Source: Nitrospirales bacterium
Lineage (GTDB): Bacteria > Nitrospirota > Nitrospiria > Nitrospirales > UBA8639
Assembly: GCA_029261235.1 (NCBI GenBank)
Contig: JAJDBS010000225.1
Span: 1 to 39,738, forward strand
Direction: 5' to 3'
Length of the DNA stretch: 39,738 nucleotides
Under the pieces are notes generated by a model. The model was not told where the DNA came from. It saw nothing but the letters and a program-made list of their open reading frames with translations, and searched no databases. The position numbers were made by a program, and so were the translations under genes. How positions within the stretch are numbered: the stretch's first letter is position 1; every line of letters begins with the position of its first letter. Shown piece by piece: positions 5,238 through 28,273 of the stretch.

Positions 5238-5418
5238 AAATTCTAATATAGATCAGGCTTGGTCATCTCCGCAGAGGTTTCATCATGCTTTTTTGGTCAA
5301 ATTTACTTAAGTATGATGTTGGCCTTGTCCGATGATATTTTATCGCGAACGCTTTCCTGCTTGAGTTCTCTCTCAATTTTTTTGAACATTTTAGTCGTGG
5401 CGGTGTTTGCGGATCTTG

Positions 5419-6450
5419 ATGGATATTGTCGTCTTTGATGAAACGCGAGATTTCCCCCTATGGGAAGCCTATGTTGCCTCTCATTCGCAGGCGACTAACT
5501 ACCATCAACTTGGCTGGAAAACGGTTATTGAGCGAAGTTTTGGCCATCAGACGCGGTACTTTTTGGCTATGAATGATGGAGTGGTAGTCGGGGTCCTTCC
5601 CTTGGCCATCTTGAAAAGTTGGTTATTTGGTCGGAGTGTCGTGTCCTTGCCTTTTTTGAATTATGGCGGCCTGTTAACTAATGATGAGCAAGCTGAAAAA
5701 GAATTAGTGTCTGCTGCTTCAGAACTTGCGATTGATGAAGGTGCAGGTTCTGTTGAGTTACGCCATTGTGAGGCGCACGGCTTAGGGTTGATCCCCAAGG
5801 AGCACAAAGTCTCGATGTTGTTGCCTTTGGCCTCAGATACGGATACGCAGTGGAAACACCTTGATGCCAAAGTGCGAAATCAAATTCGAAAAGCCGGGAA
5901 ATCCGGGTTGACTGTTCAAATTGGGGGCAAAGAATTTCTCGCTGATTTCTATGCCATGTTTGCCAGAAATATGCGTGATCTTGGCACACCCGTGTATGGA
6001 CGTGTCTTTTTTGAAACGATCCTTGACGTGTTCCCTTTACATACCAGAATTTTTGTTGTGAAACTTCAAGAGACTCCGGTGGCTGCTGGTTTGAGCAGCA
6101 TTTTCAATGAGACGATGGAAGTGCCGTGGGCAGGGTCTTTAGTTGAATATCGTTCCCTGTGTCCGAATATGTTGTTGTATTGGGAGGCCATACAATTTGG
6201 GATTCAACATGGCATGAAAGTATTTGACTTTGGGCGCAGTACACCTGGTGAGGGCACGTATCGATTTAAGACGCAATGGGGAGCCAAGGCTGCTCCGCTT
6301 GTTTGGGAATATTGGATGAAAGATGGTGGGCCACTACCGAATATCAGCCCTACCAATGCGAAGTTTGCGTTAGCCATAAAGTTGTGGAAAAAGCTTCCCT
6401 TGTCGGTGGCCAATCTGATTGGTCCGCCCATTGTTCGATCCCTTCCCTAA
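5419..6450 (+). CDS. FemAB-like GNAT-fold protein, PEP-CTERM-system associated
   Basis: A protein of about 343 residues with FemAB-type features: an N-terminal FPLWEAYVASHSQATNYHQL region, a central KVRNQIRKAGKSGL segment, NMRDLGTPVYG, and a C-terminal GMKVFDFGRSTPGEGTYRFK block. This matches the FemAB-related family that co-occurs with PEP-CTERM/exosortase loci. FemAB proteins transfer amino acids from aminoacyl-tRNA in cell-wall synthesis; the substrate of the exopolysaccharide-associated branch is not established. The start is uncertain: the ATG at 5419 lacks a good ribosome site and a TTG at 5407 is also open. It follows the barrel gene by about 180 bp. A decayed paralogue lies at 34545-34986. 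Confidence 0.82.
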   Translation: MDIVVFDETRDFPLWEAYVASHSQATNYHQLGWKTVIERSFGHQTRYFLAMNDGVVVGVLPLAILKSWLFGRSVVSLPFLNYGGLLTNDEQAEKELVSAASELAIDEGAGSVELRHCEAHGLGLIPKEHKVSMLLPLASDTDTQWKHLDAKVRNQIRKAGKSGLTVQIGGKEFLADFYAMFARNMRDLGTPVYGRVFFETILDVFPLHTRIFVVKLQETPVAAGLSSIFNETMEVPWAGSLVEYRSLCPNMLLYWEAIQFGIQHGMKVFDFGRSTPGEGTYRFKTQWGAKAAPLVWEYWMKDGGPLPNISPTNAKFALAIKLWKKLPLSVANLIGPPIVRSLP

Positions 6451-7496: not shown

Positions 7497-9899
7497 GTGA
7501 ATCCGACTGAGACAATAATTTTTGAATTGATTTTTTGGGGAAATGCTTTTCTCTTTTTTTATGTGGTTGTCGTATACCCTCTTCTTTCCATTGCCCTAGG
7601 AAAGGTTTTCCCGAAACCACGTATTTTGGATGAACAGTACCATCCAACAGTGACTCTTATCATTTCAGCTTATAATGAAGAACAAGACATTAGAAAGAAG
7701 TTAGAAAATGCTTTAGCCTTATCATATCCCAAGGATAAATTGGACATTGTCGTAATTTCCGATGCTTCCAGTGATGCGACTGATAATATAGTCCTCGAAT
7801 TCTCCAGCCAAGGGGTGAAGCTTCATCGAATGGAACAGCGAGGTGGAAAGACCGTTGGACTTAATGCCGTTGTTCCCGAGGTTCAAAGTGAAATTGTCGT
7901 TTTTTCAGATGCGAATGCTTTTTATAAACATGATGCCATTGAAAAATTTGTCCGAAATTTTTCTGATCCCCAAGTAGGGTGTGTCACTGGTGATTCCCGA
8001 TATGTTGATGTCAAGAAATCGAGTTCTGGTTCGAATGAAAAGATGTATTGGGATTATGATCGAGAGTTGAAGGTGGGGGAGAGCAGCTTTGGATCTATGG
8101 TTGGCTCAGATGGAGCCATATTCGCTATCAGGAAATCCTTATATTCGGATTTAGGTCCGCAAGACATTAACGATTTTGTGTTGCCTCTTCGTATCGTGGG
8201 ACAAGGGTTTCGGTGTGTGTTCGAAAAGGAAGCGATTTGTGAGGAAGAGAGTACGGTTCAAATGGCTCAGGAATTTTCAAGAAAAGTTCGAGTGGTGAAT
8301 CGAAGTTGGAATGCCTTATGGAATATGCAATACCTATTAAACCCTTTTGCCCATGGATGGTTTGCTGTTCAATTGTGGTCGCATAAGGTGTTGAGATGGT
8401 TGTCTCCTCTTTTCCTTCTTTTCGTTTTCTGCTCCTCTCTGGCTTTGTCGTTTTCCTCGAGTTTCTTTTTGATTGTTTTCGCTTGCCAGTTACTTGTCTA
8501 TGGTCTTGGGTTGGTCGCTTGGAAGATTGAATCTTTCAGCCGCGCCCATTGGATTTTCTCTGCCTGTGCATATCTTCTCTCAATTAACGTGGCCTCGGTT
8601 TTAGGTGTGAGTAAGAGCTTGAGAGGGCAGTCGATAATTGTTTGGGAGCCAATCCGAGCCTCAACTTCCAGTGTGAATATCGAATCGAAAAGTCCTACAT
8701 TCATAAGCGGATTTATCTTTATGTGCAGTTTGCTCCTGCTGGGAACCTGGAATTTCCCTATCTGGAGTTTTTGGATTGGGACTGTCTTGCTCTTTCATGT
8801 GTATGCGGGGTATCCCCTTCTTTTAAACCTTCTTGCCTCTGTTAAAAAGAAACCGTGGGCCCAATCATCAATTTCTCCATCAGTGACTTTGCTTGTTGTG
8901 GCGTATAACGAAGAGGAAGTGTTGAGGCAAAAGATAGAAAATTGCTTAGCCCTGGAATATCCCAAATCGCAATTGTCTATCTTGGTCTGTTCTGATGGAT
9001 CCACTGATCGAACCACAGAAATTTTAAAGGAATATCAAGAACAATTATCAATAATCTGTTTCCCTGAACGGTCAGGGAAATCTACGGTGATTGAAAAAGT
9101 GGTTGCTACCATTACTTCCGAAATTATTGTTTTTTCAGATGCGAATACCTTTCTGGAAATGGATGCGATTGAGAAGTTGGTGAGAAATTTTTCCGACGAT
9201 TCTGTCGGGGCTGTGAGTGGGAAAGTCTCTCTTGTTTCTCATGCGACGGTTCATGGTGAGCCAGAGCATTGGTACTATCGATACGAATGGCAGATCCATA
9301 CACTTGAATCACAGATTCATTCACAAGTTGGAGTGGATGGAGCTATGTATGCCATACGAAGAGAATGTTTTCCTAACAACGTAGGCACTGTGGTAAATGA
9401 TGATTTTTATATTGGGTTTCAGATTGCGTTACAAGGAATGCGTGTCGTATTTGATCCTGATGCACAAGGTCGTGAATCGTCAGAAGGAACGTTGGAAAGT
9501 GAGTTTTTTCGTAAGGTTCGAATTACTTCTCTTGGGATTAAATCATTTTTAGATTTTGATTTTTGGCCAAAGCTGTCGCAGCCGTTTCTCCTTTTTCAAT
9601 TAGTTTCTCATAAAATACTCAGATGGTTTACACCGTTTTTCATGGGGAGCGTGTTCCTGTCTTCAATTATGTTGATTGATGTGCCATTTTTCAGGGCTAT
9701 GTTCCTGATCCAATTTATTTTTTATGGATATGCCATTCTTGGGTATTTTTTGAAATCTAAGGCAGTTTGGCTTGCACTTCCTATGTATTTTTGTCTGGTT
9801 AATCTTGCGGCTGGAGTTGGTGTCGTGAAGGGATTTTTATTTGAACAGACAAAAACTTGGGATAGGATTTCATCGCGTCGCTGGGCCTCACAACAATAA
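7497..9899 (+). CDS. Tandem double GT2 glycosyltransferase, membrane-bound
   Basis: An 800-residue protein built as an internal duplication. Each half has a short N-terminal membrane segment ending in a YPLL motif, a GT-A family 2 catalytic domain, and C-terminal membrane helices. Half one has ISAYNEEQDIRKKLENALAL, an SDAN acidic motif near residue 138, NDFVLPLRIVGQGF, and RKVRVVNRSW. Half two (from about residue 405) has VAYNEEEVLRQKIENCLAL, SDAN near 548, VNDDFYIGFQIALQGM, and RKVRITS. Such proteins use sugar nucleotides at the inner face of the cytoplasmic membrane for polysaccharide or lipid-linked glycan assembly. Half two keeps an NDD acidic pair where half one has only ND-F, so the halves may differ in activity. 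The GTG at 7497 follows GAGG. The substrate is unknown. Confidence 0.85.
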   Translation: MNPTETIIFELIFWGNAFLFFYVVVVYPLLSIALGKVFPKPRILDEQYHPTVTLIISAYNEEQDIRKKLENALALSYPKDKLDIVVISDASSDATDNIVLEFSSQGVKLHRMEQRGGKTVGLNAVVPEVQSEIVVFSDANAFYKHDAIEKFVRNFSDPQVGCVTGDSRYVDVKKSSSGSNEKMYWDYDRELKVGESSFGSMVGSDGAIFAIRKSLYSDLGPQDINDFVLPLRIVGQGFRCVFEKEAICEEESTVQMAQEFSRKVRVVNRSWNALWNMQYLLNPFAHGWFAVQLWSHKVLRWLSPLFLLFVFCSSLALSFSSSFFLIVFACQLLVYGLGLVAWKIESFSRAHWIFSACAYLLSINVASVLGVSKSLRGQSIIVWEPIRASTSSVNIESKSPTFISGFIFMCSLLLLGTWNFPIWSFWIGTVLLFHVYAGYPLLLNLLASVKKKPWAQSSISPSVTLLVVAYNEEEVLRQKIENCLALEYPKSQLSILVCSDGSTDRTTEILKEYQEQLSIICFPERSGKSTVIEKVVATITSEIIVFSDANTFLEMDAIEKLVRNFSDDSVGAVSGKVSLVSHATVHGEPEHWYYRYEWQIHTLESQIHSQVGVDGAMYAIRRECFPNNVGTVVNDDFYIGFQIALQGMRVVFDPDAQGRESSEGTLESEFFRKVRITSLGIKSFLDFDFWPKLSQPFLLFQLVSHKILRWFTPFFMGSVFLSSIMLIDVPFFRAMFLIQFIFYGYAILGYFLKSKAVWLALPMYFCLVNLAAGVGVVKGFLFEQTKTWDRISSRRWASQQ

Positions 9900-10634: not shown

Positions 10635-12200
10635 ATGCTGAACATGGAGATTAAAAAATTGAATCAGAATAAAGATATATTGAAACAAAGAGAACAAAGC
10701 AAATTGGATGGTGGGAAGGATAGAATCAATTTCCAACATTCAAAAGGGAAACTTACGGCGAAAGAACGAATAGATCTATTATTAGATGACAACAGCTTTA
10801 CAGAAATAGACGCATTCGTCGTACATAGATGTAACTATTTTGGCATGGAACATAATAGAATTCCTGGTGATGGTGTTATTACTGGATATGGATCAATAAA
10901 TGGCAGATTGGTCTATATATATGCGCATGATTTTACTGTATTTGGTGGTACAGTAGCTGAAATGTTTGCAAAAAAAATTGGGAAAATTATGGATTTAGCA
11001 TTGAAAAATAAAGTACCAATTATAGGATTAAATGATTCTGGTGGAGCAAGGATTCAAGAAGGTATTACTGCTTTAGAAGGTTGTGCAGAAATTTTTTACA
11101 GAAATGTTCGATGTTCCGGGGTTGTTCCCCAAATAACGGCTATTGTTGGACCTTGTGCAGGTGCAGCCTCTTATTCGCCGGCCATCACAGATTTCATCTT
11201 TCAAGTAAAAAATATCGGCAGTCTCTTTATTACCGGACCTGATGTCGTCAAAGCAGCTATCGGAGAAGAAACCACTATTGAAAAGTTAGGTGGATGGGAA
11301 ATCCATGGGAAAAAAAGTGGATTATCTCATTTTGTTGAAGAAGATGAAGTTGAATGCTACAAAAATATTAGGAAATTATTGTCATATCTACCTCAAAATA
11401 ATCAAGAAAAGCCCTGTAAAATTAATGCCGGTGATAAGAGAAGTAGATTGTCAAAGGGATTAAATAGCATTATTCCGGAAGATCATAAAAAACCTTATGA
11501 TATGAAAAAAATCATTGAAATCGTTTTGGATAAGAGTAGTTTTTTTGAAGTTCATGAGTTATGGGCTATGAGTATTATCTGTGGATTTGGTCGTTTAGAT
11601 GGATATTCTGTCGGGATAGTTGCAAACCAACCACAATTTTATTCAGGAGCTATTGATAATTCTGCTGCAATTAAAGCAAGTAGATTTATTCGCTTTTGTG
11701 ATTGTTTCAATATTCCTATCATTACCTTCGTAGATGTTCCTGGATTTCTTCCTGGCACGCAACAAGAATCTTCCGGGATTATCAGAAATGGAGCAAAATT
11801 ATTGTATGCATTTTGTGAAGCCACAGTCCCAAGAATGACAGTGGTGACAAGAAAAGCATACGGTGGCGCGCATATTGTTATGAACAGTAAAAACTTGTTT
11901 GCAGATCTCAACTTCGCCTGGCCAAGTGCTGAATTTGCGGTTATGGGACCGGAAGGAGCAATGAATATCCTTTATAAAAAAGAAATGAAAAATGCAATAG
12001 ATCCAAAATCTCAAAAAGAATTATTTATTCAAGAATACAAAGATAATTTTGCCTCTCCATATGTTGCAGCTGAAATGGGATTTGTTGATGAGGTCATTGA
12101 GCCAAATGAAACCCGAATTAAATTAATATGCGGATTAGAGAGTCTGCAAAATAAAGATGTTGTCAATGAAAAAAGAAAACATGGAAATATTCCGCTTTGA
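10635..12200 (+). CDS. Acyl-CoA carboxylase, carboxyltransferase beta subunit (propionyl/acetyl-CoA type)
   Basis: A 521-residue protein of normal length for PccB/AccD-type carboxyltransferases. It has two crotonase-like halves with GLNDSGGARIQEG near residue 137, GPCAGAASYSPA near 170, and VDVPGFLPGTQQE and GGAHIVMNSK in the second half. It transfers CO2 from carboxybiotin to an acyl-CoA, making malonyl-CoA or methylmalonyl-CoA. It lies about 260 bp before the polyketide synthase on the same strand, so precursor supply is a sensible inference. The synthase AT looks malonyl-specific, so malonyl-CoA would be the useful product. No biotin carboxylase or biotin carrier is in the window. The gene is markedly more AT-rich than the synthase, suggesting separate acquisition. 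Start ATG 10635 or 10644. Confidence 0.88.
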   Translation: MLNMEIKKLNQNKDILKQREQSKLDGGKDRINFQHSKGKLTAKERIDLLLDDNSFTEIDAFVVHRCNYFGMEHNRIPGDGVITGYGSINGRLVYIYAHDFTVFGGTVAEMFAKKIGKIMDLALKNKVPIIGLNDSGGARIQEGITALEGCAEIFYRNVRCSGVVPQITAIVGPCAGAASYSPAITDFIFQVKNIGSLFITGPDVVKAAIGEETTIEKLGGWEIHGKKSGLSHFVEEDEVECYKNIRKLLSYLPQNNQEKPCKINAGDKRSRLSKGLNSIIPEDHKKPYDMKKIIEIVLDKSSFFEVHELWAMSIICGFGRLDGYSVGIVANQPQFYSGAIDNSAAIKASRFIRFCDCFNIPIITFVDVPGFLPGTQQESSGIIRNGAKLLYAFCEATVPRMTVVTRKAYGGAHIVMNSKNLFADLNFAWPSAEFAVMGPEGAMNILYKKEMKNAIDPKSQKELFIQEYKDNFASPYVAAEMGFVDEVIEPNETRIKLICGLESLQNKDVVNEKRKHGNIPL

Positions 12201-12460: not shown

Positions 12461-15400
12461 ATGGAGTTCTCTACGCGAGATCTTGAACGCTTTGCCGAAT
12501 GGTCAGGAGACCGTAATCCACTTCATCTAGATTCAACATTTGCGGGACGAACATCTTTTGGGCGACCGATTACTCATGGAATGCTGACCGTAATCGAAGC
12601 ACTGCGTTCTGTAAGCAAGGAATCCTACCAGTCGTTCAAGAGTTTGGAAATCGAGTTTCATGGTGCGGTTTATCCAAATGAGAGTTATCAGGTTAAATCG
12701 GCTTTCGAAAAAAAACAGCTTTCTGTCGAGGTACTCGGTGGCGTCAAGCCCGCACTAATCATTCGTGCTGATTTTGGAAAGGAAAACTCCTCACAGCAGG
12801 ATAGGGATCTTTCCTGGGTTTCTGACTTGAAGCTCGGCCAAGATTTAGCAGCGGGCCAAAGTCGGAAGTTTCCCGCCAATCGCAAATTCGAAGAATTTCG
12901 GAATAAATTTGAACTTGTAGGCGTCTACTCAACGGAGCCTCCACCTGACGATTACATAACTCAAGGACATCTTTCCCCGATTGTCATAAAAGTTTTTGGC
13001 TTCTGCAGCTATCTCGTCGGAATGGAAGTTCCGGGGTTGAGATCACTATTCACCCGGCTTCGTTTGCAGTTCCATGAAACAACCGTGGCTTCGAAAGACC
13101 TTGTGTATCGCGTCAATACGTCTCGCTTCGACCGAGAGTTTCGGATACTGGATACGGAATTAGAAATTGCCACTCCAGACGGTATCCTGGTCGCAACTGG
13201 TGATGTGCGTAGTTATATCCCCTTCAGCCCTACTGTCACAGATCTGGCCGAACTCGGTTCTCGGTTAGAACTTGGGAACCGACAGCATGAAGGGAAAGTC
13301 GCTCTTGTCTGTGGAGGAAGCCGTGGGCTCGGTGCTGATCTAGCATCAGCTCTAGCACTTTCAGGATACCATGTCTATGCAAGTTACCGGAACTCTCGGG
13401 AAGATGCTGAAGAGCTTGCTGATAGAATTACCAAGCAGGGAGCTCATTTGGAGCTTCTTCAAGGTGACGTTGGTGACCCGAACTGGTGCTCCGCAGCAAA
13501 AAAAACCATACTTGAACGACATGGTCGCCTCGACCTTCTTATCCTTAATGCTTGTTCTCCTCCCGGATCCTTGCGTATCAGTAGTGATTCTGCAGAAAAA
13601 TTTGAAGAGTACATTTTCCGAAACCTTCGCCTAGTGCAGCTTCCCCTGGCAGAGTTTCTCCCTACACTTAATTCTCATCAAGGGAGTGTCGTTGCGATAT
13701 CATCTTCGGCCGTCGAAAATCCCCCAGCAGATTGGGGTCACTATGTTGCCTTAAAGCAGGCAATGGAAGGAATAATTCAATCTGCTTCACGAGAATTTGC
13801 CAATCTTTTCTGTCTCATTGTTCGGCCACCCAAGCTTCAAACGGCTTGGAATGACAGCCCAACTCATGTGATTGGTGCTATTCCGACAGATCTAATCGCA
13901 GTGCACACCGCCAATCGTCTTGCTAAAAACATCACGCGTGGTCAGGTGGAGGTCCTTTCAAATTTTCCTGTCCTCGATCTACCGACTTTGACTACATCGG
14001 AGGATAAGAAAGCCGATTTCAATATCGTTCTTTCAGCCAGTTTTACAGCGGAACCCTTTCTGCCTGCACTACGTTTCTGGTTTTATGAACTCGGCCTGCC
14101 TGCCTCCGTGGAAATTTCTCCTTACGGTCAGGTTCTACAAGAACTTATCAATCCTGGGAGTGCTCTCTCCTCTAATTCGAGTGGTATAAGCGTTGTCATG
14201 CTTCGAATACGCGATTGGTTACGAGAACTGTCCCACGATGCAATGAAGACGAGTGAAGGCCTGAGAACCTTTCTTGGAAATACCTCGGAAGAATTTGTAC
14301 GAGCAATGCGATCTCACAGGGCACATGCTTCTGTTGACACAATTTTTGTTCTTTGCCCTTCGATTAATAATACATTGAAGGAAGAAGACAGGGAGCTGCT
14401 TAACGCAGAATCGAATTTACTCCAAGAGCTCACCACTATTCCTGGCCTACAAATTATTGCCGCTAAAGATTTCAATGATCGTTATGATGTGAACCCTGAT
14501 GAAATTAATGATCCATTGCGTGAGGAAATCGCTCATATTCCCTACAAAGATGCATATATCTATACACTAGCTACCCTTTTAATGCGAAGCATTTACCGGA
14601 AATTTTTGCCAGTACGAAAGGTGGTTGTGGTGGACTGTGACAATACCCTTTGGGCCGGTGTCGTTGGTGAGTTAGGTGTTGAAGGTATCAAATTCGATCT
14701 TGTCCATAAAGAACTTCATGCAACGCTTACTAGATTAGGTAAGAGTGGGATGCTTATTTGCCTCTGTAGCAAAAATGAGGAGGTTGACGTTTGGGAAGTT
14801 TTTGAAAGCCGGAAAGATTTCGGATTAAGACGAGATCAAATTGTTGCTTCTATGATTAACTGGAATCCGAAATCAGAAAATATCCGCTTGCTTGCCTCAC
14901 GATTGAATGTGGGTATAGATAGTTTTATTTTTATTGATGATAATCCAGTCGAATGTGCCGAGGTACGTTCCGGTTGTCCTGAAGTTCTTGTTCTCGAGTG
15001 GCCTCAGGAGGACAACGCTGCCACGCGTCTCTTGCAGCATACCTGGGAATTTGATCTCCTCGAGGGTACCAAAGAGGATTCAAAAAGGACCAAGCTGTAT
15101 CGTGACGAATTCCGACGACAAGAGGCCAAAGACGATACATTTACCCTGCGAGAATTTATCGAAAGTCTTCAGTTACAAGTCGATATTATCCCTCTGTCTA
15201 AAGAAGATGTCCCTAGGGCTTCCCAACTTACATTGCGGACAAACCAATTTAATTTCACCACACGTCGCCGTAAGGAAAATGATTTGAAATCGCTGTTTGA
15301 AAGCGATTCGTATGTCGGTTCTACAATACAAGTTCGTGATCGGTTTGGCGACTATGGGTTGGTCGGTCTTGTCATTGCTGAAAAGCAGGGAGCGTTCCTA

Positions 15401-18400
15401 CTTGTTGATACGTTTCTCCTCAGTTGCAGAGTTTTAGGCCGTGGTGTTGAACACGAGATGGCTGCCGAACTGGGACGAAGAGCCATGGAATTGAAAAGAG
15501 AGACCGTAAGGTTTCTAATAATACCGACAGAGAAGAATACACCTGCGCGCTCATTTTTAGAATCTATCTGTTCTTCAGAACAGAAAAAAGTGTTTGAAGG
15601 ATCTTTTCAATGCGATATCCCGGCAGCTGAACTATCAAATCTTAAATTTGAGCCTGCTGAGCAGAAAGAAGACGATTCTCAAAAGCAACAAAAGGAAAAA
15701 CAATCTACGCCGGACAAGGTCCAGGTAATAGACGGAAAACAACAGCGGTCACGAGAAAGACAGATCGTTCGTGCAGCCTCAGAGCTGTCATCCATTAAAC
15801 AACTTAATACTGCGATCGGTGGTAGTACCGATAATCAAAGCTTAAGCCCGCTTGTCGCCCATTCAGACGAACAATCAGACGATATTGCTCAGCAAATATA
15901 TCAAACCTTTTCTGCAGCGTTAAACATCCCCATAAGCAACCTCAAAGAAATTGACCAACTTGAACAGCTTGGTTGTAGTTCCTTTAAAATTGTTGAAATC
16001 ACGGTTTCTCTAACAGACAAATATTCGTGGCTACCCAGTACTCTGTTGTTTGAGCATCGATCAATTTCGGAGATCATACAAAATGTGACTGATCTTCTAG
16101 GTAAGACAGATGAAAGGGAGCCAGCCTCGACTTCAGAAAAAACAATAACTACCGTGGCAGATCCAGGGAATAAGAATTCTCAGAGTGACATAGCCGTAAT
16201 AGGAATGAACTTGCGGTGTGGAGGTGCAAACTCACCTGATGAATTGTGGGAGCTATTGAGTTCTGGAGGTACTTCGGTAGGTCCGGCTCCGCCGGACCGG
16301 GGTTACCCAGATAATGTTCAAAATTGGGCCGCTTGGGTGGATGGTGTGGACTCTTTTGATGCTAATTTTTTCGGCATATCTCCTCGTGAAGCCGAGTATA
16401 TGGACCCTCAGCTACGATTGTTTCTTGAAACAGCCTGGTCTGCACTTGAAGATGGCGCATGTATGGGGGATAGAAGTGATGTGGACACGGGTGTCTATGT
16501 GGGTGTTCTATACGGAGACTATGTGTTTCATGCGAATTGCCTTGCAGGTAAAAAAGACCAGCCCTATCGGTGTTGGGAAGGATTTAGCTTAGCCAACCGC
16601 CTGTCGCAATTTCTCGGATTTCGTGGTCCCAGTCTCGCTGTCAACACAGCCTGCTCGTCTTCGGGAACGGCATTGCATATCGCCTGTAAAGCTCTAGCAG
16701 CAGGTGAATGTACAACTGCTATTGTTGGAGGCGTCAACCTTATTCTTGATGCCGATCGATTGTCTCAACTAGGACGATTGGGAATTATATCGCCCACAGG
16801 TAAATGCAGTCCCTTTGGAAATGAGGCGAATGGAACGATTATAGGAGAAGGTGTGGGAGTCGTTGTGCTTAGGCCATTGCATGAGGCACAACAACGCGGC
16901 GACCATATTTATGGCGTGATCAAGGGAACCGCTCTTAGCACGGGTGCGGGTACCGTTGGTTTTACCGCGCCGAACCCAACCGCTCAGGCGGAGGCAATAC
17001 GAAAGAGTTTGATCGTAGCAAATGTTGATCCACGTACGATTACTATGGTGGAGGCTCATGGGACTGGGACCGCACTTGGTGACCCCATCGAGGTCCGAGG
17101 TCTGACTCTGGCGTACACTGATAAGAAATTGTGGGATAAGAAAATTGATGGAACGCACACATGTAAATTGTCCGCAATCAAACCGAATATAGGTCACCTG
17201 GAGGCTGGCGCCGGGATCATGGGGCTCATCAAGGTGCTGCTTCAATTTGACCGAGGTTATCTTTTGCCGACGATCACCTCTGAACAACCCAATTCTCAAA
17301 TTCCGTTTGAAACCCTTCCATTCAAGATTCAACGAAAGCTCGAGCCATGGGATCGAGCCATAATGAAAGTTGCTGGAGTACCCACTACATTTCCAAGGCG
17401 TGCAGGATTGAGTTCTTTTGGCGTTGGTGGTGCAAATGCCCATCTCATTTTAGAAGAGCCACCGGAGGCATCTTCATCAGACAATAAGCTTTTTGTCCGA
17501 CCTTTTCATATTCTGACCCTTAGTGCTCGCAACAAAGAAAGCCTAGATAACCAAGTTCTTAGGGTTCAGGAATTTCTGGGATCAAATCAAGATCTCGCCC
17601 TCGAAGATATAAGTTATACCGCCAATATTGGTCGTAAGCATTTTGAGCATCGTCTGGCATTTTTGGGAAGTAATCAAACAAAATTGATGGGTTCACTCGA
17701 GGACTATGTTGCTGGAGAAGACCCTATCGGGTGCGTTCAAGGAAGGAGTCCCAAATCCACTGGGCCAACAAAGATTGCTTTCCTTTTCACTGGTCAAGGG
17801 GCGCAATATTTGGACATGGGAAAAGCACTATATAAGACCCATCCAGTGTTTAGAGAAACGCTTGATCAATGCGTGGAAAATTTGAAGCCGTGTATGAATT
17901 GCTCAATTCTTGACGTGATGTTTGCTGAAAAAGAGAGTTCGGAGGCCCTCCTTCTGAATCAGACTGGCTATACCCAACCTGCCCTGTTTGTCATCGAATA
18001 TTCTCTAGCAAAGTTATGGGAAAGTTGGGGAATTCACCCGGATATCGTTATAGGACACAGTGTAGGTGAAATTGCTGCCCTATGCGTTGCGGGCGGGGTT
18101 TCACTTGAGGATGGGCTCAAATTAACCGCAGCAAGGGGCCAACTTATGCAAGCCTTACCTTCCGGAGGGGGTATGGCTTCTGTCCGAGCAGGAGAGGCCG
18201 AGGTAAAGAAGGCCATATTGGGCTATGAGGACCGTGTGTCCATCGCGGGGTTCAACAGTCCGGAACAGACGGTGATTTCAGGAGATGGCGATGCGATTAA
18301 CGAAATTTTAGCCCAATTGGAAGTTAATGGGATCAAAACCAAAGCCTTGTCTGTTTCCCATGCATTTCATTCGCATTTGATGGATCCCATGATTGATAAG

Positions 18401-21400
18401 TTTAAAGAAGTCGTTAAGGAAATTAACTTCTCCCTTCCAAAAATACCATTTGTCAGTTGCGTAAAAGGCACGCTGGTCACTGATGAGATAAAGGATTCCG
18501 AATATTGGGTACAGCAAGTGCGCAACCCGGTCCGGTTTACTGAAGGGATGAAGAGGTTAGAAGAACAATCTGTCACGACATTCCTTGAGGTTGGTCCTCA
18601 GCCAGTGCTTTTAGGGATGGGAAAGCATTGCTTGCCAGATGAAGAAGTTGATTGGTTACCTTCTCTGAGGGGGGGTGCCGACGAGTGGCAAACTGTTCTG
18701 GGAAGTCTGGCTAAACTTTATGTGAGGGGTGTTTCAATTGATTGGAAGGGATTTGATGCCCCTTATAGTTACAAAATTGTATCCATTCCCAATTACTCGT
18801 TCAGACGCAAACAATTTTGGATTGATATTCCCAGTGAGCAGACTTTAGGCATAAACAAGGCTTTACCCGCACGTTCCGCATTAGATGAATTATTAAGCAG
18901 CCAAGATGAATCCGGGTTTTCAGATTATGTTCGGAATGCCATAAAACTCTCGACGGAAGAGGCCATGGTTCTTCCAAAGGTTTTCAAAGCCCTATCTTTG
19001 GAGGCGGAACGGGAGCAAGATGAGGTTCAAATTGGAGAAAAGCTGTATCAGGTTGTTTGGAAAGAAAAGTTACAGGGAATAACCGAGAATTCAAAAAAGG
19101 CCGGTGGGATTTGGATTATTCTCATGGATCAAAATGGATTCGGCGAGATACTGACAAAGGTGCTTGCAAACAACGGCACAGAATACACGTGTGTTTGGCG
19201 GGATACTCATTTTAAGCAAAAGGATGCCGACAATTTCTTTATAGATCCTCAGCAAGCGGAACATTTTGAAAAATTGTGGCAATCTATTTACGCTCAAGAT
19301 AAGCCAATCAACGGTGTCATCCAACTTTGGGCTCTCGATACTCCGCTGTCGAGTGAATTGAATGCCGAAGACTTTGATTCTTACCAAAAAAATACTACTG
19401 AAAGTGCGCTCCACCTAGTTCAAACCCTTGCGAAGCGTTCGGAAGCAAACAAACCAGCCATATGGTTGATTACTCGGGATGCAGTGAAGACAGGGGAGGA
19501 TGTATCCAACGAAGTTGTATCGGTCGCGCAGACCCCCCTTTGGGGGTTTGCTAGGACAATTTCGCTTGAACACCATGATCTCTGGGGGGGGATACTGGAC
19601 CTTTCGTCAAATGGGGATCTCACTGACCAAGCGGAAATGCTTTACACTGCGCTTTCCAATACCAGTACGGAAGATCAACTGGCATTGAGAGGTGGAAAGC
19701 CGTTCGTGCCTCGGCTCATAAAGCACAATGGCAAAAGAGTCAGCGACGTGGTCCTTGATGACAAGGGGAGCTATTTAATCACTGGTGGTTTAGGTGCCTT
19801 GGGTCTTCATACCGCCGGATGGTTAATCAAAAAAGGAGCCAAAAATTTAATTTTGACCAGTCGGCGTGGAATGGAGTCACCTGACGCAAAAGAGATCGTC
19901 GTCAGGCTGGAGAAGCAAGGTGCCAATGTTAAGGTGATTGCTGCTGATATTTGTTGTACAGAGGACGTAGACAAGCTTTTTACCGAAATCAAAAATTCGA
20001 AGCTATTCTTACGAGGTATTGTTCATGCTGCAGGAGTAGATGCTCTTGTACCCGTGGCTGAAATGAGTGTGCACGAGCTTCGAGACTTACTGGCTCCTAA
20101 GATGAAAGGGGCCTGGTTACTGCACAAACATACTCTTGATGTAGATCTTGATATGTTTATTTGTTTTTCCTCTATTTCCTCCATCTGGGGTTCGAGTGGA
20201 CGCGCTCATTATGGCGCGGCTAATGCTTTTCTTGATGGTCTTGCTTACTACAGACAGAGCCTTGAGTTGCCTGCCCTTAGTGTTAACTGGGGGCCATGGA
20301 AAGGTGGAGGTATGGCCAACGAAGAGCAGCTCCAACTTTTGGAGAGGATGGGTAATCACGGCCTTGACCCAGATGTGGCAGTGTTAGCGCTTGAGTATCT
20401 GCTTCATAATGCAGACGCGCAGGGCATCGTTGCCGATATTGATTGGGCTCAATTTCGCTCCGTTTTTGAGGCGCGCAAAGCACGTCCCTTGTTTTCAGAG
20501 TTAGAGGGAATTCCGAGAGGGGATACTTCCGATCTTGTAAATGAATGTCCACGATGGATTACCCTACTCCGGGAAAAATCTACAGATCAGCATTCGGAAT
20601 TGCTTACTAAACTTTTACAAAAAGAAGTGGCTAAAACTCTTGGGTTTGAAAACCCCGAAGAAGTTCGACTGGACCAAGGCTTATTCGACATTGGAATGGA
20701 CTCACTGATGGCCATTGAGCTTGCTACCCAATTAAATAAATGTCTTGGAATCCGAATATCGGCAACCGATTTCAGTCAGCCAAACTTACGCATCTTGTCA
20801 GAGCATTTCTTGAATCAGTTGAATTTGGATGTGGCACTGAGTCCTGGAGGGAAAAGTAAAGGTGAAGGCTGTGTTTCTCGGACAGAGGTAAAAGGAAATG
20901 GGCTTCAGTCCAAGTGGATGGAACAAATAAAGGAAGCTCCTTCTGAAGAAAGGGCAATAATTCTGGTGGAGTTGTTGCGCAAAGAGGTAGCAAAAACCCT
21001 CGGACTTGAAGATCCGGAAGAAGTTCGCTTAGATCGAAGCTTATTCGAAATTGGAATGGATTCTCTTATGGCGGTCGAACTTGCCAATGGTCTTAAAAAG
21101 CGTTTTGGAATTCAAATATCTGCTTCTGATTTTAGCCTTCCACACTTGGAGGCCATTGCAGCCCATCTACTTGGACAGCTACCCGTTGCTAAAGAACATC
21201 AGACTGGGGTTATTCATTTTAGCCCTGACCTGGAATCAGAGACATTTGAGTACCATCGAAAAGCCTTCCCAGGAAGGAGAACCGATTGGGTAGAGCCGCG
21301 TTGGCGATGGATGTTTTTAGAATCCGCCAAAAGATTAAATATAGACCCTATGATTTGGCTCTATCGGGACTCAGATTCAATCGTTTCACATTGCGGTGCT

Positions 21401-22276
21401 ATCCCAGTGAAGATAAAAATAGGTGAGAGAGAATGTAGTACTTCATGGTTTGCGGAATCAATGACCCTTGAATCTCACAGATCCAAAGGTGTCGGAGGGA
21501 TGATTTTAATGCAGTCGAAAGAGGATGTCCCTTTTAATTTGTCCCTCGGTCAGGAAGAATTCATGCGAAACATGCAAATAAAGCTTGGATGGACACTTAT
21601 TGGTCCTTTAGGGGTATATTTCTATCCGTTACGGCCTCAGAATATTCTTCAGGGCAAGCTACCGAAAGGTCCGGTTTCTTGGGGGGCTTCTGCAGCACTT
21701 TCCCTCACCACGGAAATGAAGCGTGTTATAGGACGCCCTTCCCATAAATGGAAACCAGAGATCTGCTCAATCAACCGTTTTGACGGTGAACACGATGAGC
21801 TGTGGAAATCTGTCAGTAAAGAATTGACATGTACAGTTGTTCGAGATGCATCTTTTCTAAACTGGAAATATGTGGATCAACCAGGGCAGAACTTTAAAAA
21901 ACTTGAAATCCGAAAAGAAGGAGAAGTCCTAGCGCTGGCGATCATTTCCATTGAAGAACCATCGGATGCATACCCCTATCGGAGAGCTTTTCTCGTGGAT
22001 TTGATTGTGAAGCCTTCTGATTCTGAAGCAGTTTGGGCTGTTCTTGATGCTGTTCGAGCCCATTCAATCCATGAGGAAGCTGACGCGATTATTTGTTATC
22101 TCTCGTGCCCTGCACTAAAGAATCAACTTGTAAGTTTTGGTTTCCGCTCCAGAGAGGCTACTCGATTCTTAATCGCCTCTACTGAGGGGGTAGAAGAGTC
22201 GGAGGTCGAGCTACTCTCGTCTATGGACAACTGGTATCTTACGATGGGCGATTCTGACATCGACCGACCTTGGTAG
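12461..22276 (+). CDS. Giant type I polyketide synthase: MaoC-hotdog-SDR-FkbH-ACP-KS-AT-KR-ACP-ACP-GNAT
   Basis: About 3271 residues from the ATG at 12461 (AGAGGA eight bases upstream). Domains in order: MaoC-type dehydratase with SGDRNPLHLD (about 3-110); a second hot-dog-like region (about 150-270); SDR with GGSRGLG near 284 and YVALK near 428; FkbH-like HAD domain with DCDNTLWAG near 725 and RTNQFNFTTRR; ACP with GCSS near 1173; KS with TACSSSG near 1398, EAHGTGT and NIGHLEAG; AT with GHSVGE near 1865 and HAFHSH near 1967, the malonyl signature; KR with GGLGALG near 2442 and a Ser-Tyr-Asn set; two ACPs with GMDSLM near 2747 and 2867; and a GNAT-like region (about 2917-3257). FkbH domains load glyceryl units from 1,3-bisphosphoglycerate onto ACPs. 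No thioesterase is present; release may involve the GNAT-like end (inference). All visible KS, AT and KR catalytic motifs look intact. Confidence 0.92.
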   Translation: MEFSTRDLERFAEWSGDRNPLHLDSTFAGRTSFGRPITHGMLTVIEALRSVSKESYQSFKSLEIEFHGAVYPNESYQVKSAFEKKQLSVEVLGGVKPALIIRADFGKENSSQQDRDLSWVSDLKLGQDLAAGQSRKFPANRKFEEFRNKFELVGVYSTEPPPDDYITQGHLSPIVIKVFGFCSYLVGMEVPGLRSLFTRLRLQFHETTVASKDLVYRVNTSRFDREFRILDTELEIATPDGILVATGDVRSYIPFSPTVTDLAELGSRLELGNRQHEGKVALVCGGSRGLGADLASALALSGYHVYASYRNSREDAEELADRITKQGAHLELLQGDVGDPNWCSAAKKTILERHGRLDLLILNACSPPGSLRISSDSAEKFEEYIFRNLRLVQLPLAEFLPTLNSHQGSVVAISSSAVENPPADWGHYVALKQAMEGIIQSASREFANLFCLIVRPPKLQTAWNDSPTHVIGAIPTDLIAVHTANRLAKNITRGQVEVLSNFPVLDLPTLTTSEDKKADFNIVLSASFTAEPFLPALRFWFYELGLPASVEISPYGQVLQELINPGSALSSNSSGISVVMLRIRDWLRELSHDAMKTSEGLRTFLGNTSEEFVRAMRSHRAHASVDTIFVLCPSINNTLKEEDRELLNAESNLLQELTTIPGLQIIAAKDFNDRYDVNPDEINDPLREEIAHIPYKDAYIYTLATLLMRSIYRKFLPVRKVVVVDCDNTLWAGVVGELGVEGIKFDLVHKELHATLTRLGKSGMLICLCSKNEEVDVWEVFESRKDFGLRRDQIVASMINWNPKSENIRLLASRLNVGIDSFIFIDDNPVECAEVRSGCPEVLVLEWPQEDNAATRLLQHTWEFDLLEGTKEDSKRTKLYRDEFRRQEAKDDTFTLREFIESLQLQVDIIPLSKEDVPRASQLTLRTNQFNFTTRRRKENDLKSLFESDSYVGSTIQVRDRFGDYGLVGLVIAEKQGAFLLVDTFLLSCRVLGRGVEHEMAAELGRRAMELKRETVRFLIIPTEKNTPARSFLESICSSEQKKVFEGSFQCDIPAAELSNLKFEPAEQKEDDSQKQQKEKQSTPDKVQVIDGKQQRSRERQIVRAASELSSIKQLNTAIGGSTDNQSLSPLVAHSDEQSDDIAQQIYQTFSAALNIPISNLKEIDQLEQLGCSSFKIVEITVSLTDKYSWLPSTLLFEHRSISEIIQNVTDLLGKTDEREPASTSEKTITTVADPGNKNSQSDIAVIGMNLRCGGANSPDELWELLSSGGTSVGPAPPDRGYPDNVQNWAAWVDGVDSFDANFFGISPREAEYMDPQLRLFLETAWSALEDGACMGDRSDVDTGVYVGVLYGDYVFHANCLAGKKDQPYRCWEGFSLANRLSQFLGFRGPSLAVNTACSSSGTALHIACKALAAGECTTAIVGGVNLILDADRLSQLGRLGIISPTGKCSPFGNEANGTIIGEGVGVVVLRPLHEAQQRGDHIYGVIKGTALSTGAGTVGFTAPNPTAQAEAIRKSLIVANVDPRTITMVEAHGTGTALGDPIEVRGLTLAYTDKKLWDKKIDGTHTCKLSAIKPNIGHLEAGAGIMGLIKVLLQFDRGYLLPTITSEQPNSQIPFETLPFKIQRKLEPWDRAIMKVAGVPTTFPRRAGLSSFGVGGANAHLILEEPPEASSSDNKLFVRPFHILTLSARNKESLDNQVLRVQEFLGSNQDLALEDISYTANIGRKHFEHRLAFLGSNQTKLMGSLEDYVAGEDPIGCVQGRSPKSTGPTKIAFLFTGQGAQYLDMGKALYKTHPVFRETLDQCVENLKPCMNCSILDVMFAEKESSEALLLNQTGYTQPALFVIEYSLAKLWESWGIHPDIVIGHSVGEIAALCVAGGVSLEDGLKLTAARGQLMQALPSGGGMASVRAGEAEVKKAILGYEDRVSIAGFNSPEQTVISGDGDAINEILAQLEVNGIKTKALSVSHAFHSHLMDPMIDKFKEVVKEINFSLPKIPFVSCVKGTLVTDEIKDSEYWVQQVRNPVRFTEGMKRLEEQSVTTFLEVGPQPVLLGMGKHCLPDEEVDWLPSLRGGADEWQTVLGSLAKLYVRGVSIDWKGFDAPYSYKIVSIPNYSFRRKQFWIDIPSEQTLGINKALPARSALDELLSSQDESGFSDYVRNAIKLSTEEAMVLPKVFKALSLEAEREQDEVQIGEKLYQVVWKEKLQGITENSKKAGGIWIILMDQNGFGEILTKVLANNGTEYTCVWRDTHFKQKDADNFFIDPQQAEHFEKLWQSIYAQDKPINGVIQLWALDTPLSSELNAEDFDSYQKNTTESALHLVQTLAKRSEANKPAIWLITRDAVKTGEDVSNEVVSVAQTPLWGFARTISLEHHDLWGGILDLSSNGDLTDQAEMLYTALSNTSTEDQLALRGGKPFVPRLIKHNGKRVSDVVLDDKGSYLITGGLGALGLHTAGWLIKKGAKNLILTSRRGMESPDAKEIVVRLEKQGANVKVIAADICCTEDVDKLFTEIKNSKLFLRGIVHAAGVDALVPVAEMSVHELRDLLAPKMKGAWLLHKHTLDVDLDMFICFSSISSIWGSSGRAHYGAANAFLDGLAYYRQSLELPALSVNWGPWKGGGMANEEQLQLLERMGNHGLDPDVAVLALEYLLHNADAQGIVADIDWAQFRSVFEARKARPLFSELEGIPRGDTSDLVNECPRWITLLREKSTDQHSELLTKLLQKEVAKTLGFENPEEVRLDQGLFDIGMDSLMAIELATQLNKCLGIRISATDFSQPNLRILSEHFLNQLNLDVALSPGGKSKGEGCVSRTEVKGNGLQSKWMEQIKEAPSEERAIILVELLRKEVAKTLGLEDPEEVRLDRSLFEIGMDSLMAVELANGLKKRFGIQISASDFSLPHLEAIAAHLLGQLPVAKEHQTGVIHFSPDLESETFEYHRKAFPGRRTDWVEPRWRWMFLESAKRLNIDPMIWLYRDSDSIVSHCGAIPVKIKIGERECSTSWFAESMTLESHRSKGVGGMILMQSKEDVPFNLSLGQEEFMRNMQIKLGWTLIGPLGVYFYPLRPQNILQGKLPKGPVSWGASAALSLTTEMKRVIGRPSHKWKPEICSINRFDGEHDELWKSVSKELTCTVVRDASFLNWKYVDQPGQNFKKLEIRKEGEVLALAIISIEEPSDAYPYRRAFLVDLIVKPSDSEAVWAVLDAVRAHSIHEEADAIICYLSCPALKNQLVSFGFRSREATRFLIASTEGVEESEVELLSSMDNWYLTMGDSDIDRPW
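20585..21185 (+). repeat. Tandemly duplicated ACP-coding segment in the polyketide synthase
   Basis: Two ACP domains lie exactly 360 bases apart, measured between their phosphopantetheine serine codons (near 20701 and 21061). They remain similar at protein and DNA level: both have KEVAKTLG, a PEEVRLD segment and GMDSLMA. The spacing and similarity indicate an internal duplication more recent than the split from the first ACP near 15977, which has a GCSS motif instead. Confidence 0.75.
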
Positions 22277-24148: not shown

Positions 24149-25417
24149 CTAAAAATAGTTGTGCAATCGTAAGACTTTGCTTACCTCAACGGTATAGTTT
24201 TTTCGAACGTGGTGCCAGATATGGGTTGAATCTTCGTAATCTTCTGAGATATGGCTGGGCAGTTCGTCAGTAATCAGATGTACGTTTGAGAATTTGTTGG
24301 TTACTTCTTGGAGAAACCTTTCGAAATCAATTCTCATCGACGGCGGTAAATGGCTCGTAACCTTTGGGTTGATTTGTCCCTGTATGATTATCACTCGTAT
24401 TCCCAAGTCTTTCGCCTCTTTTATAAATCGGACGAACTCTGTTTTTTGAATGTTCTGATCTTTGTTCATACTCAAAATACGAGCCCGCTTTTCGAATTTA
24501 GTGATAGTTGGTTTATCGGTTGGCCTTCGTTTTTTTACAGGAACAGAGAAGTTTTTCTCAGCTAGCCCTCCAAAAAAAGCGAGCTCCACTGCACGTCGCA
24601 ATTGAAACATTGGTAAAACAGCAGCTAGAGTTCCGTAACGTACCTTGGAATCCAGCCCATCGACTTCCCTCGCCAATGATACAGCCCACGGAACCCTTCG
24701 CAATTTGAGAAGCGGGAGGAAACGTGAGGCCGAAATATTTTCGTAGAAGTTGATCTCGCTCACATAGCAAATGATCGTGTTCGCTCCCGTGGTCGAGATA
24801 TGATCCAGGATCAATGGGAAATCAGATGCCGCTGCGCCGGCGTAGCTTAAGTTTCCGAATCGTGCTCGACCCGAAAATATTCTATCCAGTTGACCGGTGT
24901 CGATCTGAGATCTTCCTTGACTCGATCCGATGACAACGACCTTTTTGCGTGTAACAGGTGTGGCTGCCAACAGATTCCTTTCGAAATGAAAAGCGCTTTG
25001 CTTCAGATTCGGATGCGCGAAGAAGATGCCACCCCAGAACAGCGTTGTATCGCGGGCCACGACAATCCAAGCGTTTAGTAAAATGAGCACCAGAAAAGCT
25101 GCGAACAAGCCTCTAAGCTTGGGGTGCACAATCGATTTCGCTGAGACATAAATCCATCTCATGAGGCCGGCAATAACTATCGGAGTTGTAAGAAGTTGCA
25201 GAGTTTCTTTTTCAATCTGGAGAAAGAATAATCGCGCATTGACTATTCGTCCTTTGCCAACCCCCTCAAGCCATGTTCCGATTTGAGCATTGAGAAAATC
25301 TGATAGAGGCACAGCGCCAAGCAAATGGCCGAGCCACATGAGGCCGATCCCAGCGGCTAAGGCAGACCAAGTCAGGCTTTCTAGCTTAAAATGCGAAGTA
25401 GATGAATTGTGTTCCAC
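24149..25417 (-). CDS. SGNH-hydrolase-like membrane protein, partner of MBOAT O-acyltransferase
   Basis: About 422 residues. An N-terminal membrane region (SALAAGIGLMWLGHLLG and further helices near 90-120) precedes a periplasmic-type domain beginning VVVIGSSQGRSQID near residue 163. The GSSQ block fits the nucleophile block of SGNH/DltD/AlgJ-like proteins, and a terminal DSTHIWHHVRKNY near 398 supplies a plausible Asp-His pair. Such proteins accept acyl groups moved across the membrane by MBOAT proteins and place them on glycans. The GTG at 25415-25417 is chosen because GGAG lies six bases upstream; a TTG at 25429 is also open. Its start overlaps the end of the upstream MBOAT gene by about 32 bases, implying translational coupling. 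Confidence 0.72.
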   Translation of the reverse strand: MEHNSSTSHFKLESLTWSALAAGIGLMWLGHLLGAVPLSDFLNAQIGTWLEGVGKGRIVNARLFFLQIEKETLQLLTTPIVIAGLMRWIYVSAKSIVHPKLRGLFAAFLVLILLNAWIVVARDTTLFWGGIFFAHPNLKQSAFHFERNLLAATPVTRKKVVVIGSSQGRSQIDTGQLDRIFSGRARFGNLSYAGAAASDFPLILDHISTTGANTIICYVSEINFYENISASRFLPLLKLRRVPWAVSLAREVDGLDSKVRYGTLAAVLPMFQLRRAVELAFFGGLAEKNFSVPVKKRRPTDKPTITKFEKRARILSMNKDQNIQKTEFVRFIKEAKDLGIRVIIIQGQINPKVTSHLPPSMRIDFERFLQEVTNKFSNVHLITDELPSHISEDYEDSTHIWHHVRKNYTVEVSKVLRLHNYF

Positions 25418-26828
25418 TAAGTACTCCAAATACGGCTATCCCGGCAAAACAGGCACTCAGAACCAAAGCCTGAGTAGATGGACGCCATTCGTAGGCCTGT
25501 TCCAATTCCTCATGATATAACTGCAGTACAAACACTAGCACTCCTATAGGCACAATCGAACGAAGAACGTCGATAGCCGTGCCAGAAATTTCCAAGATCC
25601 ATAGGCTTTGAATACTGGTCAGCAGAAAGCTCACTTGATACTCGTCCGGAACACCACCCACTCGAAAGACGAGCCACCCCAGACAGCAGAGGTGAAAAAA
25701 CAAGAAGGTCTTGCCTATGGCCGATGGGCGTCCAGACAGAAACGCTCTAGATTTCTGAGTCCTTGGCGAGCGTTGGGTGGATTCAATCAAGCGGTGCCCG
25801 GCCAGTAGGATGCCCTGGTATGCTCCCCACAGTACAAAGGGCCACCCAGCTCCATGCCACAATCCGCCGAGAAGCATAGTGAGCATAAGATTTCTGTAGG
25901 TTGCAACTTCTCCATCTCTGTTGCCTCCCAGTGGAATGTAGAGGTAATCCCGAAGCCATGTCGATAAACTAATATGCCAATGACGCCAGAACTCACTCGG
26001 GTTGGACGATAGGTATGGTGCTTTGAAATTCATGCGCAGTTCAAAGCCCATCAACTTTGCCGTACCTCGAGCTATATCCGAGTAGCCTGAGAAATCTCCA
26101 TAGACCTGAAACGCGAATGCATAGACGAACAACCAATTAGAAATCCCATCGTCGGGTAATGCAATGCCAGAAAATGCCGGATCGACGATTTGCGACATTC
26201 GATCCGCAATGACCAGTTTTTTGAAAAAACCAATAACAATTAAAAAAAATCCGCCCACAATCTGGTTTATGTCAAACTTGCGAGGACTGAGAACTTGGGG
26301 GAGAAAGTGTGTTGCCCGTTCAATTGGGCCAGCGACCAGTTGAGGGAAAAATGACACGTAGAGAGCCAGATCAAGAAAGTTGTCCGTAGGTTTCAACTGG
26401 CCTCTGTATACGTCGATGGTGTAGCTGAGCGTCTGAAATGTGTAAAATGAAATGCCCACGGGAAGTATGATGTGGAGCGTCGGAAAATCTGCTCCGAATC
26501 CTACGGCAGCGAGAGCCTGTTCCGCAGAGTCAATGAAGAAGCCGAAGTATTTAAAGAATCCTAGGCAGCCTAAGTTTGATGCCAAACTCAAAGACAACAG
26601 AAGTTTCTTTCTTTCGGGATGTCCCGAGCTTGAAATCGCGCGCGCGACGAAATAGTCCACCGTCGTGGAGAACAACAGCAGCGTCAGGAATCGATAGTCC
26701 CACCAGCCATAGAAAAAATAACTTGCTACGAGCAGAAACCTGTTCTGCAGGACTCGAGTACGGGCGATGTAATAACCCGTCAAGACTACGCAAAGAAAAA
26801 CCAGAAAAATAAAAGAATTAAATAGCAT
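25386..26828 (-). CDS. MBOAT-family O-acyltransferase (AlgI-like)
   Basis: A 480-residue multi-pass membrane protein with classic MBOAT features: start MLFNSFIFLVFL, ASYFFYGWWDYRFL, ISFYTFQTLSYTIDVYRG, FFPQLVAGPIERA, DFSGYSDIARG, EFWRHWHISLSTWLRDYLYIPLGGN, and the catalytic His in GGLWHGAGWPFVLWG near residue 324. AlgI/DltB-type MBOATs move acyl groups, usually acetyl, from a cytoplasmic donor to extracytoplasmic glycans with an SGNH-type partner, which is encoded immediately downstream. In this locus it probably acylates the exopolysaccharide or a lipid-linked product (inference). The gene is more GC-rich than its neighbours. The ATG at 26826-26828 has a weak ribosome site. Confidence 0.9.
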   Translation of the reverse strand: MLFNSFIFLVFLCVVLTGYYIARTRVLQNRFLLVASYFFYGWWDYRFLTLLLFSTTVDYFVARAISSSGHPERKKLLLSLSLASNLGCLGFFKYFGFFIDSAEQALAAVGFGADFPTLHIILPVGISFYTFQTLSYTIDVYRGQLKPTDNFLDLALYVSFFPQLVAGPIERATHFLPQVLSPRKFDINQIVGGFFLIVIGFFKKLVIADRMSQIVDPAFSGIALPDDGISNWLFVYAFAFQVYGDFSGYSDIARGTAKLMGFELRMNFKAPYLSSNPSEFWRHWHISLSTWLRDYLYIPLGGNRDGEVATYRNLMLTMLLGGLWHGAGWPFVLWGAYQGILLAGHRLIESTQRSPRTQKSRAFLSGRPSAIGKTFLFFHLCCLGWLVFRVGGVPDEYQVSFLLTSIQSLWILEISGTAIDVLRSIVPIGVLVFVLQLYHEELEQAYEWRPSTQALVLSACFAGIAVFGVLSGTQFIYFAF

Positions 26829-27975: not shown

Positions 27976-28273
27976 TCCCCAGCTTGAGGGTAATCTATTG
28001 ATACCTGTGGTCAAAAATTCTGGGAGAACTCCAACTCTAGACAACGAAGAGCACCCTGACATGATTTCCACGCACTTCGTGTTGTTTCTTGATTTCCGCA
28101 CTGTAGAAGTCGCCAAATAACAAGGTATTTTGGCTGTGTGCGAGAGCCTTGGATTTTGGAAAGATGTGGCAGTCGACAACGGCACAACTGTAGAGGGTGA
28201 TCCCGGGTGTAAGATGAACGGTGCAACTGGTTACCACGACTGGTATGGTTTACGACACCAAAAAAATTAAGGA
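27976..28273. other. Spacer with an unassigned short minus-strand frame
   Basis: A 66-codon minus-strand frame at 28037-28237 includes LTPGITLYSCAVVDCHIFPKS. This has a faint hexapeptide-acyltransferase (LpxD-like) look, but the Ile/Val periodicity is too short to support it. It has no ribosome site. It is best regarded as unassigned, possibly relic DNA beside the dead IS3 element. Confidence 0.25.

Follow-up and report, generated by a model that had tools for sequence, protein, structure and literature searches.

A single-protein polyketide synthase in a Nitrospirales exopolysaccharide locus carries a bryostatin-type loading module and a predicted releasing acyltransferase

Bryostatin-type polyketide synthases (PKSs) open with a loading module of collinear MaoC, hot-dog, SDR, FkbH and ACP domains directly ahead of a ketosynthase (KS), and from it they start long trans-AT assembly lines. 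The starter of bryostatin is lactate, for which we found no confirmation in the literature searched, and among the carriers of the module is Candidatus Endobugula sertula, the bryostatin symbiont. The synthase described here shares the collinear order up to and including the KS with Candidatus Endobugula sertula (L106), Ensifer canadensis (WP_203528975) and Streptomyces anulatus (WP_326621725) at ~31-36% identity, but continues in the same chain with one cis-AT module and an acyltransferase. It also shares an FkbH domain and a carrier protein with the glyceryl-ACP enzymes of the methoxymalonyl-ACP and tetronate pathways, where the glyceryl unit is oxidized or condensed directly, whereas here FkbH is paired with MaoC and SDR (PMC7489565). 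For the polysaccharide setting, the closest described case is the O-polysaccharide cluster of Flavobacterium psychrophilum (wfpC-G), in which an ACP-bound dihydroxy-acyl group, 3,5-dihydroxyhexanoyl, is predicted to be passed by an N-acyltransferase to the amino sugar of UDP-Qui2NAc4N; this system, in the description of which no FkbH is mentioned, differs from ours in that discrete type II enzymes do the work, with a PglD-like transferase and another chain (PMC6519341).

The window, meaning the whole stretch of 39,738 nucleotides analyzed here (contig JAJDBS010000225.1), belongs to an incomplete Nitrospirales MAG of 4.17 Mb (83%). The exact target of a Nitrospira 16S probe occurs in genomes of this order but not in the window's own genus, so that the placement, at order level, is probable. 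Its synthase gene is free of internal stops, has a good ribosome site (AAGAGGA, 8 bases upstream of the ATG) and encodes, in order, MaoC, a degenerate hot-dog, SDR, FkbH, ACP, KS, acyltransferase (AT), ketoreductase (KR), two further ACPs and a terminal acyltransferase (Table 1). This is the order given in a preliminary description, which had also claimed about 3271 residues in one frame with the main catalytic motifs intact, and both claims held. Specifically, Pfam and NCBIfam located MaoC (residues 5-86, E 4e-13), SDR (279-448, 9e-40), FkbH (TIGR01686, 717-1040), ACP1 (1135-1219), KS (1242-1606), AT (1774-2090), KR (2436-2614) and two PP-binding stretches, while the hot-dog and the GNAT end come from AlphaFold models; in Pfam, the GNAT end reached no more than a hit below threshold (PF13527, E 0.001) and is carried instead by its predicted structure. 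Every motif checked was intact: GDRNPLH in MaoC, GGSRGLG and YxxxK in SDR, DCDNTLW and FIDDNP in FkbH, GCSS in ACP1, C-H-H in KS, GHSVGE and HAFH in AT, YxxxN in KR and GMDS in ACP2 and ACP3. With KS, AT and ACP and their catalytic residues in one polypeptide, the protein is a type I modular (cis-AT) PKS. Its KS-AT-KR-ACP part resembles NCBIfam NF045894 (PKS_plus_SDR) but scores 1438.8 bits against a cut-off of 1740, and that family has neither the FkbH front nor the GNAT end. Neither chance nor a chimeric assembly accounts for the gene, given that its domain order recurs in eight independent genomes. The domain architecture is firm; the chemistry and the acceptor are what we infer.

Table 1. 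Features of the synthase and its neighbors, in window coordinates.
Feature	Coordinates	Strand	Basis
Whole single-protein polyketide synthase ORF, 3271 aa	12461..22276	+	Uninterrupted ORF, SD AAGAGGA, Pfam/NCBIfam domains
MaoC hydratase/dehydratase hot-dog, GDRNPLH at residues 16-22	12461..12874	+	PF01575 E 3.9e-13; D17, P20, H22 invariant in nine loading-unit homologues
Second, degenerate hot-dog-like domain (without catalytic D..NP..H)	12875..13246	+	AlphaFold helix and four-strand order; conserved S183, G187, M188, P191, G192
SDR reductase, GGSRGLG and YxxxK (Y428, K432)	13247..13975	+	PF00106 E 9e-40; FabG-like by sequence and fold
FkbH, N-terminal region and TIGR01686 HAD-IIIC catalytic part; predicted glyceryl loader from 1,3-bisphosphoglycerate	14018..15580	+	TIGR01686 309 bits; DCDNTLW, DDNP, TNQFN, SCRVLGRG family-conserved
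ACP1, putative starter-unit carrier (GCSS)	15878..16117	+	PF23297 at 1135-1219; serine conserved
Ketosynthase, Cys-His-His intact	16184..17464	+	PF00109/PF02801
Acyltransferase, GHSVGE and HAFH (malonyl-type)	17780..18730	+	PF00698 E 1e-65; HAFH in 9/9 full-length copies
Ketoreductase, structural and catalytic subdomains	19058..20302	+	PF08659 E 3e-69; catalytic Tyr/Asn conserved
ACP2	20600..20818	+	PF00550; 58% identical to ACP3
ACP3, tandem with ACP2	20966..21178	+	PF00550 at 2838-2903
C-terminal tandem-GNAT acyltransferase, predicted releasing N-acyltransferase, last residues WYLTMGDSDIDRPW	21182..22273	+	Model pLDDT 90; NMT/Eis fold, VIA Z 21-23
FemAB of XrtA/PEP-CTERM system	5407..6450	+	TIGR03019 391.5 bits; marks exopolysaccharide locus; also on contigs of other copies
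Double family-2 glycosyltransferase	7497..9899	+	Halves 37% identical; homologues near several other copies
Carboxyltransferase, propionyl/methylmalonyl-CoA type	10635..12200	+	PF01039 E 2e-182
MBOAT acyltransferase and partner membrane protein	24149..26828	-	PF03062 E 5e-32
Fused Zn-dehydrogenase/GFO-IDH protein	28274..30445	-	Homologue beside PKS of L095

The non-standard order pointed out in the preliminary description is not unique: the synthase belongs to a conserved protein family present in at least three phyla. When 84,980 species genomes were scanned once with an N-terminal alignment and the matches mapped for domains, the complete order emerged as one ORF in eight further genomes, seven from Planctomycetota (L090, L091, L093, L094, L095, L096, L098) and one from a Vicinamibacteraceae (L101). 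These homologues are 38-46% identical to the window synthase over ~3000 aligned residues and keep the catalytic residues, the exception being L101 with a single C-terminal ACP. Broken pieces at contig ends represent at least three further genomes, from Acidobacteriota (L088 and L207; L202) and Pirellulaceae (L089 and L208), and a quick FkbH-domain tree of 106 sequences placed 13 family members in one group (99% SH-aLRT). The family is also rare. The window genome is the sole carrier of the fused synthase among 49 genomes of its taxonomic family; the fused copy of the query genome was the only one in a Planctomycetota sample of 392 genomes, and an Acidobacteriota sample of 396 held two, one being that of the query genome. 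Such scatter over phyla suggests horizontal transfer of the synthase between them. A scan of viral contigs returned no relatives of the synthase, and literature searches on FkbH together with MaoC, and on FkbH together with glyceryl and polysaccharide, returned no paper describing the architecture, a weak negative in that subscription journals lay outside their coverage.

The front half is no odd assortment of domains; it is a loading module that recurs among PKSs, in trans-AT synthases of the bryostatin type and in others. Residues 1-1225 can be aligned over their whole length with the N-terminal ends of trans-AT PKSs from Ensifer canadensis, Streptomyces anulatus, Paenibacillus and Candidatus Endobugula sertula. 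In a tblastn search against plasmids, MaoC-hot-dog-SDR-FkbH-ACP opened PKS proteins of S. anulatus and E. canadensis over 98-99% of the query, and the genome scan added loading-module matches in Paenibacillus, several Streptomyces and Candidatus Endobugula sertula. The FkbH domain lies far above the curated TIGR01686 cut-off (309 bits versus 146.65), with DxDxT and DDNP motifs present, and the window KS, outside its own family, is 42-48% identical to the KS that comes first behind this loading module in other PKSs, closer than to the second KS of those proteins. By sequence, then, the half from MaoC to KS is a known kind of PKS loading module, standing as in bryostatin-type PKSs with its ACP directly ahead of the KS. 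The cis AT, with its intact GHSVGE, sets the synthase apart from trans-AT assembly lines, so that the module is common to both but the system is not. Further PKSs that open with this module occur at L084 (E. canadensis pT173a), L085, L099-L105, L113 and L146. At window positions 14633-14653, the FkbH motif reads DCDNTLW, as in fused or PKS-type FkbH, while the discrete Nitrospirales enzymes have DLDNTLW. Within the module, residues 139-262 had no Pfam match; the AlphaFold model of residues 1-510 places one long helix and four strands in hot-dog-like order at residues 151-252, and on this model we regard the stretch as a degenerate hot-dog-like domain. A Foldseek search with residues 1-510 gave only SDR among the matches listed, which leaves the two hot-dogs without fold-search confirmation.

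These parts suggest a route that the synthase could complete by itself. FkbH, going by its family, would move glyceryl from 1,3-bisphosphoglycerate to ACP1; MaoC would dehydrate glyceryl-ACP across C2-C3 to enol/pyruvyl-ACP, which the SDR would reduce to lactyl-ACP. The AT would then load malonyl on ACP2 or ACP3, the KS would condense lactyl with one malonyl, and the KR would reduce the keto group to 3,4-dihydroxypentanoyl-ACP, a product we predict because KS, AT and KR are each present once and neither DH nor ER follows the KS. Finally, the C-terminal tandem-GNAT domain would release the chain onto an amine, most likely that of an amino-sugar precursor of the exopolysaccharide from the XrtA-type locus around the gene. 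The HAFH motif in a PKS AT marks malonyl specificity, and its presence, together with the single KS and single AT, supports the one malonyl extension proposed earlier; C3 loading of the FkbH type, likewise proposed, is supported too.

The starter is where we depart from the preliminary description, which pointed to glyceryl loading by FkbH and a C3 starter; what enters the KS is more likely lactyl than glyceryl, because MaoC and SDR appear to belong to the loading unit. In many related Nitrospirales genomes (L026-L036), FkbH and MaoC-hot-dog-SDR are adjacent separate genes, and blastp found no KS match in the DNA surrounding these pairs; Pfam annotation of the L026 locus showed a hexapeptide-type acyltransferase and an ABC-2 exporter as neighbors and no KS. 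A fully split set with FabD, KAS III, MaoC-SDR and FkbH occurs at L043. Since MaoC and SDR adjoin FkbH where no KS is matched, they seem tied to FkbH and not to chain extension, which suggests that their substrate is the C3 unit, taken from glyceryl through pyruvyl to lactyl, and makes the Nitrospirales gene pairs candidate stand-alone lactyl-ACP cassettes. The bryostatin symbiont has the same loading order, and bryostatin starts from lactate, which again speaks against glyceryl as the starter. A glyceryl starter, with MaoC and SDR acting later or on another intermediate and 3,4,5-trihydroxypentanoyl as product, would agree with descriptions of FkbH family members leaving glyceryl on a carrier protein (PMC7489565; PMC13122637), but we consider it unlikely: fusion or adjacency of the two enzymes to FkbH persists where no KS is matched in the vicinity, none of their catalytic residues varies, and the module already has its own KR. 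In published work, a tool for metabolic models and pathway reconstruction encodes FkbH loading as 1,3-BPG + ACP to D-lactate-ACP (PMC7901079), and the FkbH loading module of oocydin has been described as non-functional, the starter there being malonyl (PMC4552970), so that homology by itself is no proof of the starter.

For the C-terminal domain, the earlier label "GNAT-like" stands as to fold and is refined to a tandem GNAT of the N-myristoyltransferase (NMT)/Eis type. Over the full tandem domain, the model matches these N-acyltransferases (Foldseek E ~1e-13; against Eis2, VIA Z 22.2 and rmsd 3.5 Å over 301 residues), although sequence identity is ~10% and the window domain, being fused to ACPs, presumably takes acyl-ACP as its donor. 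The motif DSDIDRP at the C-terminus is invariant in all nine fused copies, and a GDSD-like ending recurs in most of the stand-alone GNAT relatives examined. These relatives (~21-30% identity) lie in loci that also hold homologues of the glycosyltransferase, MBOAT or FemAB genes. At L066, FkbH adjoins a stand-alone GNAT; at L067, FkbH, MaoC-hot-dog-SDR and GNAT are three consecutive genes; and at L072, genes for an ACP and an AMP-ligase come after that for the GNAT domain. Given the company of FkbH and polysaccharide genes, the domain is best read as a releasing, acyl-ACP-dependent N-acyltransferase, a reading that the model fits, with the limits that GNAT folds acylate many kinds of amine and that the fold is silent on acyl-ACP use. 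We recognized no aminotransferase or amino-sugar gene in the window. A decarboxylating GNAT like that of CurA was rejected, as the CurA type is a single GNAT in a loading module before the first KS, whereas here the domain is C-terminal, tandem and after the last ACP. One stand-alone GNAT (L200, genome G1022, 17729-18802) is unusually close to the fused ones (37%), and no PKS or other homologue of window genes was found near it.

The exopolysaccharide context claimed in the preliminary description is supported by the FemAB protein (TIGR03019 cut-off 260), a PEP-CTERM protein (1011-1712) and the double family-2 glycosyltransferase, and the genome holds two exosortases elsewhere, as in XrtA/PEP-CTERM exopolysaccharide loci. 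The window also encodes kinase-like proteins, a further glycosyltransferase and a methyltransferase. Three other copies share their contigs with a FemAB homologue, each of which passes the curated TIGR03019 cut-off, and at L095 the dehydrogenase fusion, methyltransferase and kinase have homologues as well, with a flippase and an XrtA-type amidotransferase that scores below its cut-off also present. For five copies (L090, L091, L093, L101, L202) no homologues of window neighbors were found, partly since the contigs are short. By gene content, then, several copies sit, like that of the window, in exosortase/XrtA-type exopolysaccharide loci. The carboxyltransferase gene is a possible source of malonyl-CoA; we set it aside as a dedicated partner because no homologue lies near other synthase copies. 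Its GC content, 35% against 44% for the window, suggests an origin different from that of its neighbors. Several other observations concern the surrounding DNA: an NRPS (35091-39476, +) that opens with a formyltransferase domain and also has adenylation, carrier and thioesterase domains, its specificity residues, read by eye, resembling a glutamine code; a fragment (34738-34893, +) that matches the FemAB of this locus at residues 210-251 with 42% identity and is probably the remnant of a second copy; short overlapping ORFs with the look, by eye, of transposase remnants between MBOAT and the dehydrogenase fusion (27394-28237); and, elsewhere in the genome, a second, large PKS system (L079) with a 2976-residue ORF containing KS, AT and ACP.

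On balance, we give about even odds to the synthase being self-contained for one C5 hydroxy-acyl group, making 3,4-dihydroxypentanoyl and transferring it to the amine of an exopolysaccharide precursor. Other fates of the chain can be imagined. The C-terminal domain might acylate an amino acid or small amine, yielding a free or lipid-like small molecule as the N-acyl amino acid synthases of PEP-CTERM loci do; a passage citing Craig et al. 2011 links those enzymes to exosortase loci and extracellular polymers (PMC12078418), and the NRPS lies 13 kb from the synthase. That NRPS was not found near other copies, however, and stand-alone GNAT relatives sit near homologues of the glycosyltransferase, MBOAT or FemAB genes, which makes a small-amine acceptor improbable. 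More doubtful still is an ordinary secondary-metabolite PKS that works iteratively or hands its chain to MBOAT or the NRPS, the polysaccharide setting being incidental. Twin ACPs and the proximity of NRPS and MBOAT would suit such a protein, but the synthase has its own putative releasing transferase, which each of the eight other single-ORF copies retains, and XrtA-type genes recur at copies in other phyla, on whose contigs no other PKS or NRPS was matched.

The loading module, FkbH and the NMT/Eis fold are all known; what seems new is their fusion with a cis-AT module in one protein among polysaccharide genes. We tentatively propose, at somewhat less than even odds, that this family of single-protein synthases, which would build an acyl group and transfer it, links the lactyl-starter chemistry of bryostatin-type assembly lines to exopolysaccharide decoration, that Nitrospirota, Planctomycetota and Acidobacteriota have exchanged it, and that the separate-gene forms (FkbH, MaoC-hot-dog-SDR and acyltransferase) represent a general lactyl-ACP route for surface sugars. 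If so, one polypeptide would both make and attach a defined C5 hydroxy-acyl group, its C-terminal domain would be a candidate amide-forming releasing domain, and the glyceryl-to-lactyl step proposed for bryostatin loading would become testable in a compact system with no trans-AT or further module. Further, type I PKSs would serve cell-surface polysaccharides, and uncultured phyla could be searched for acylated exopolysaccharides by means of the domain order.
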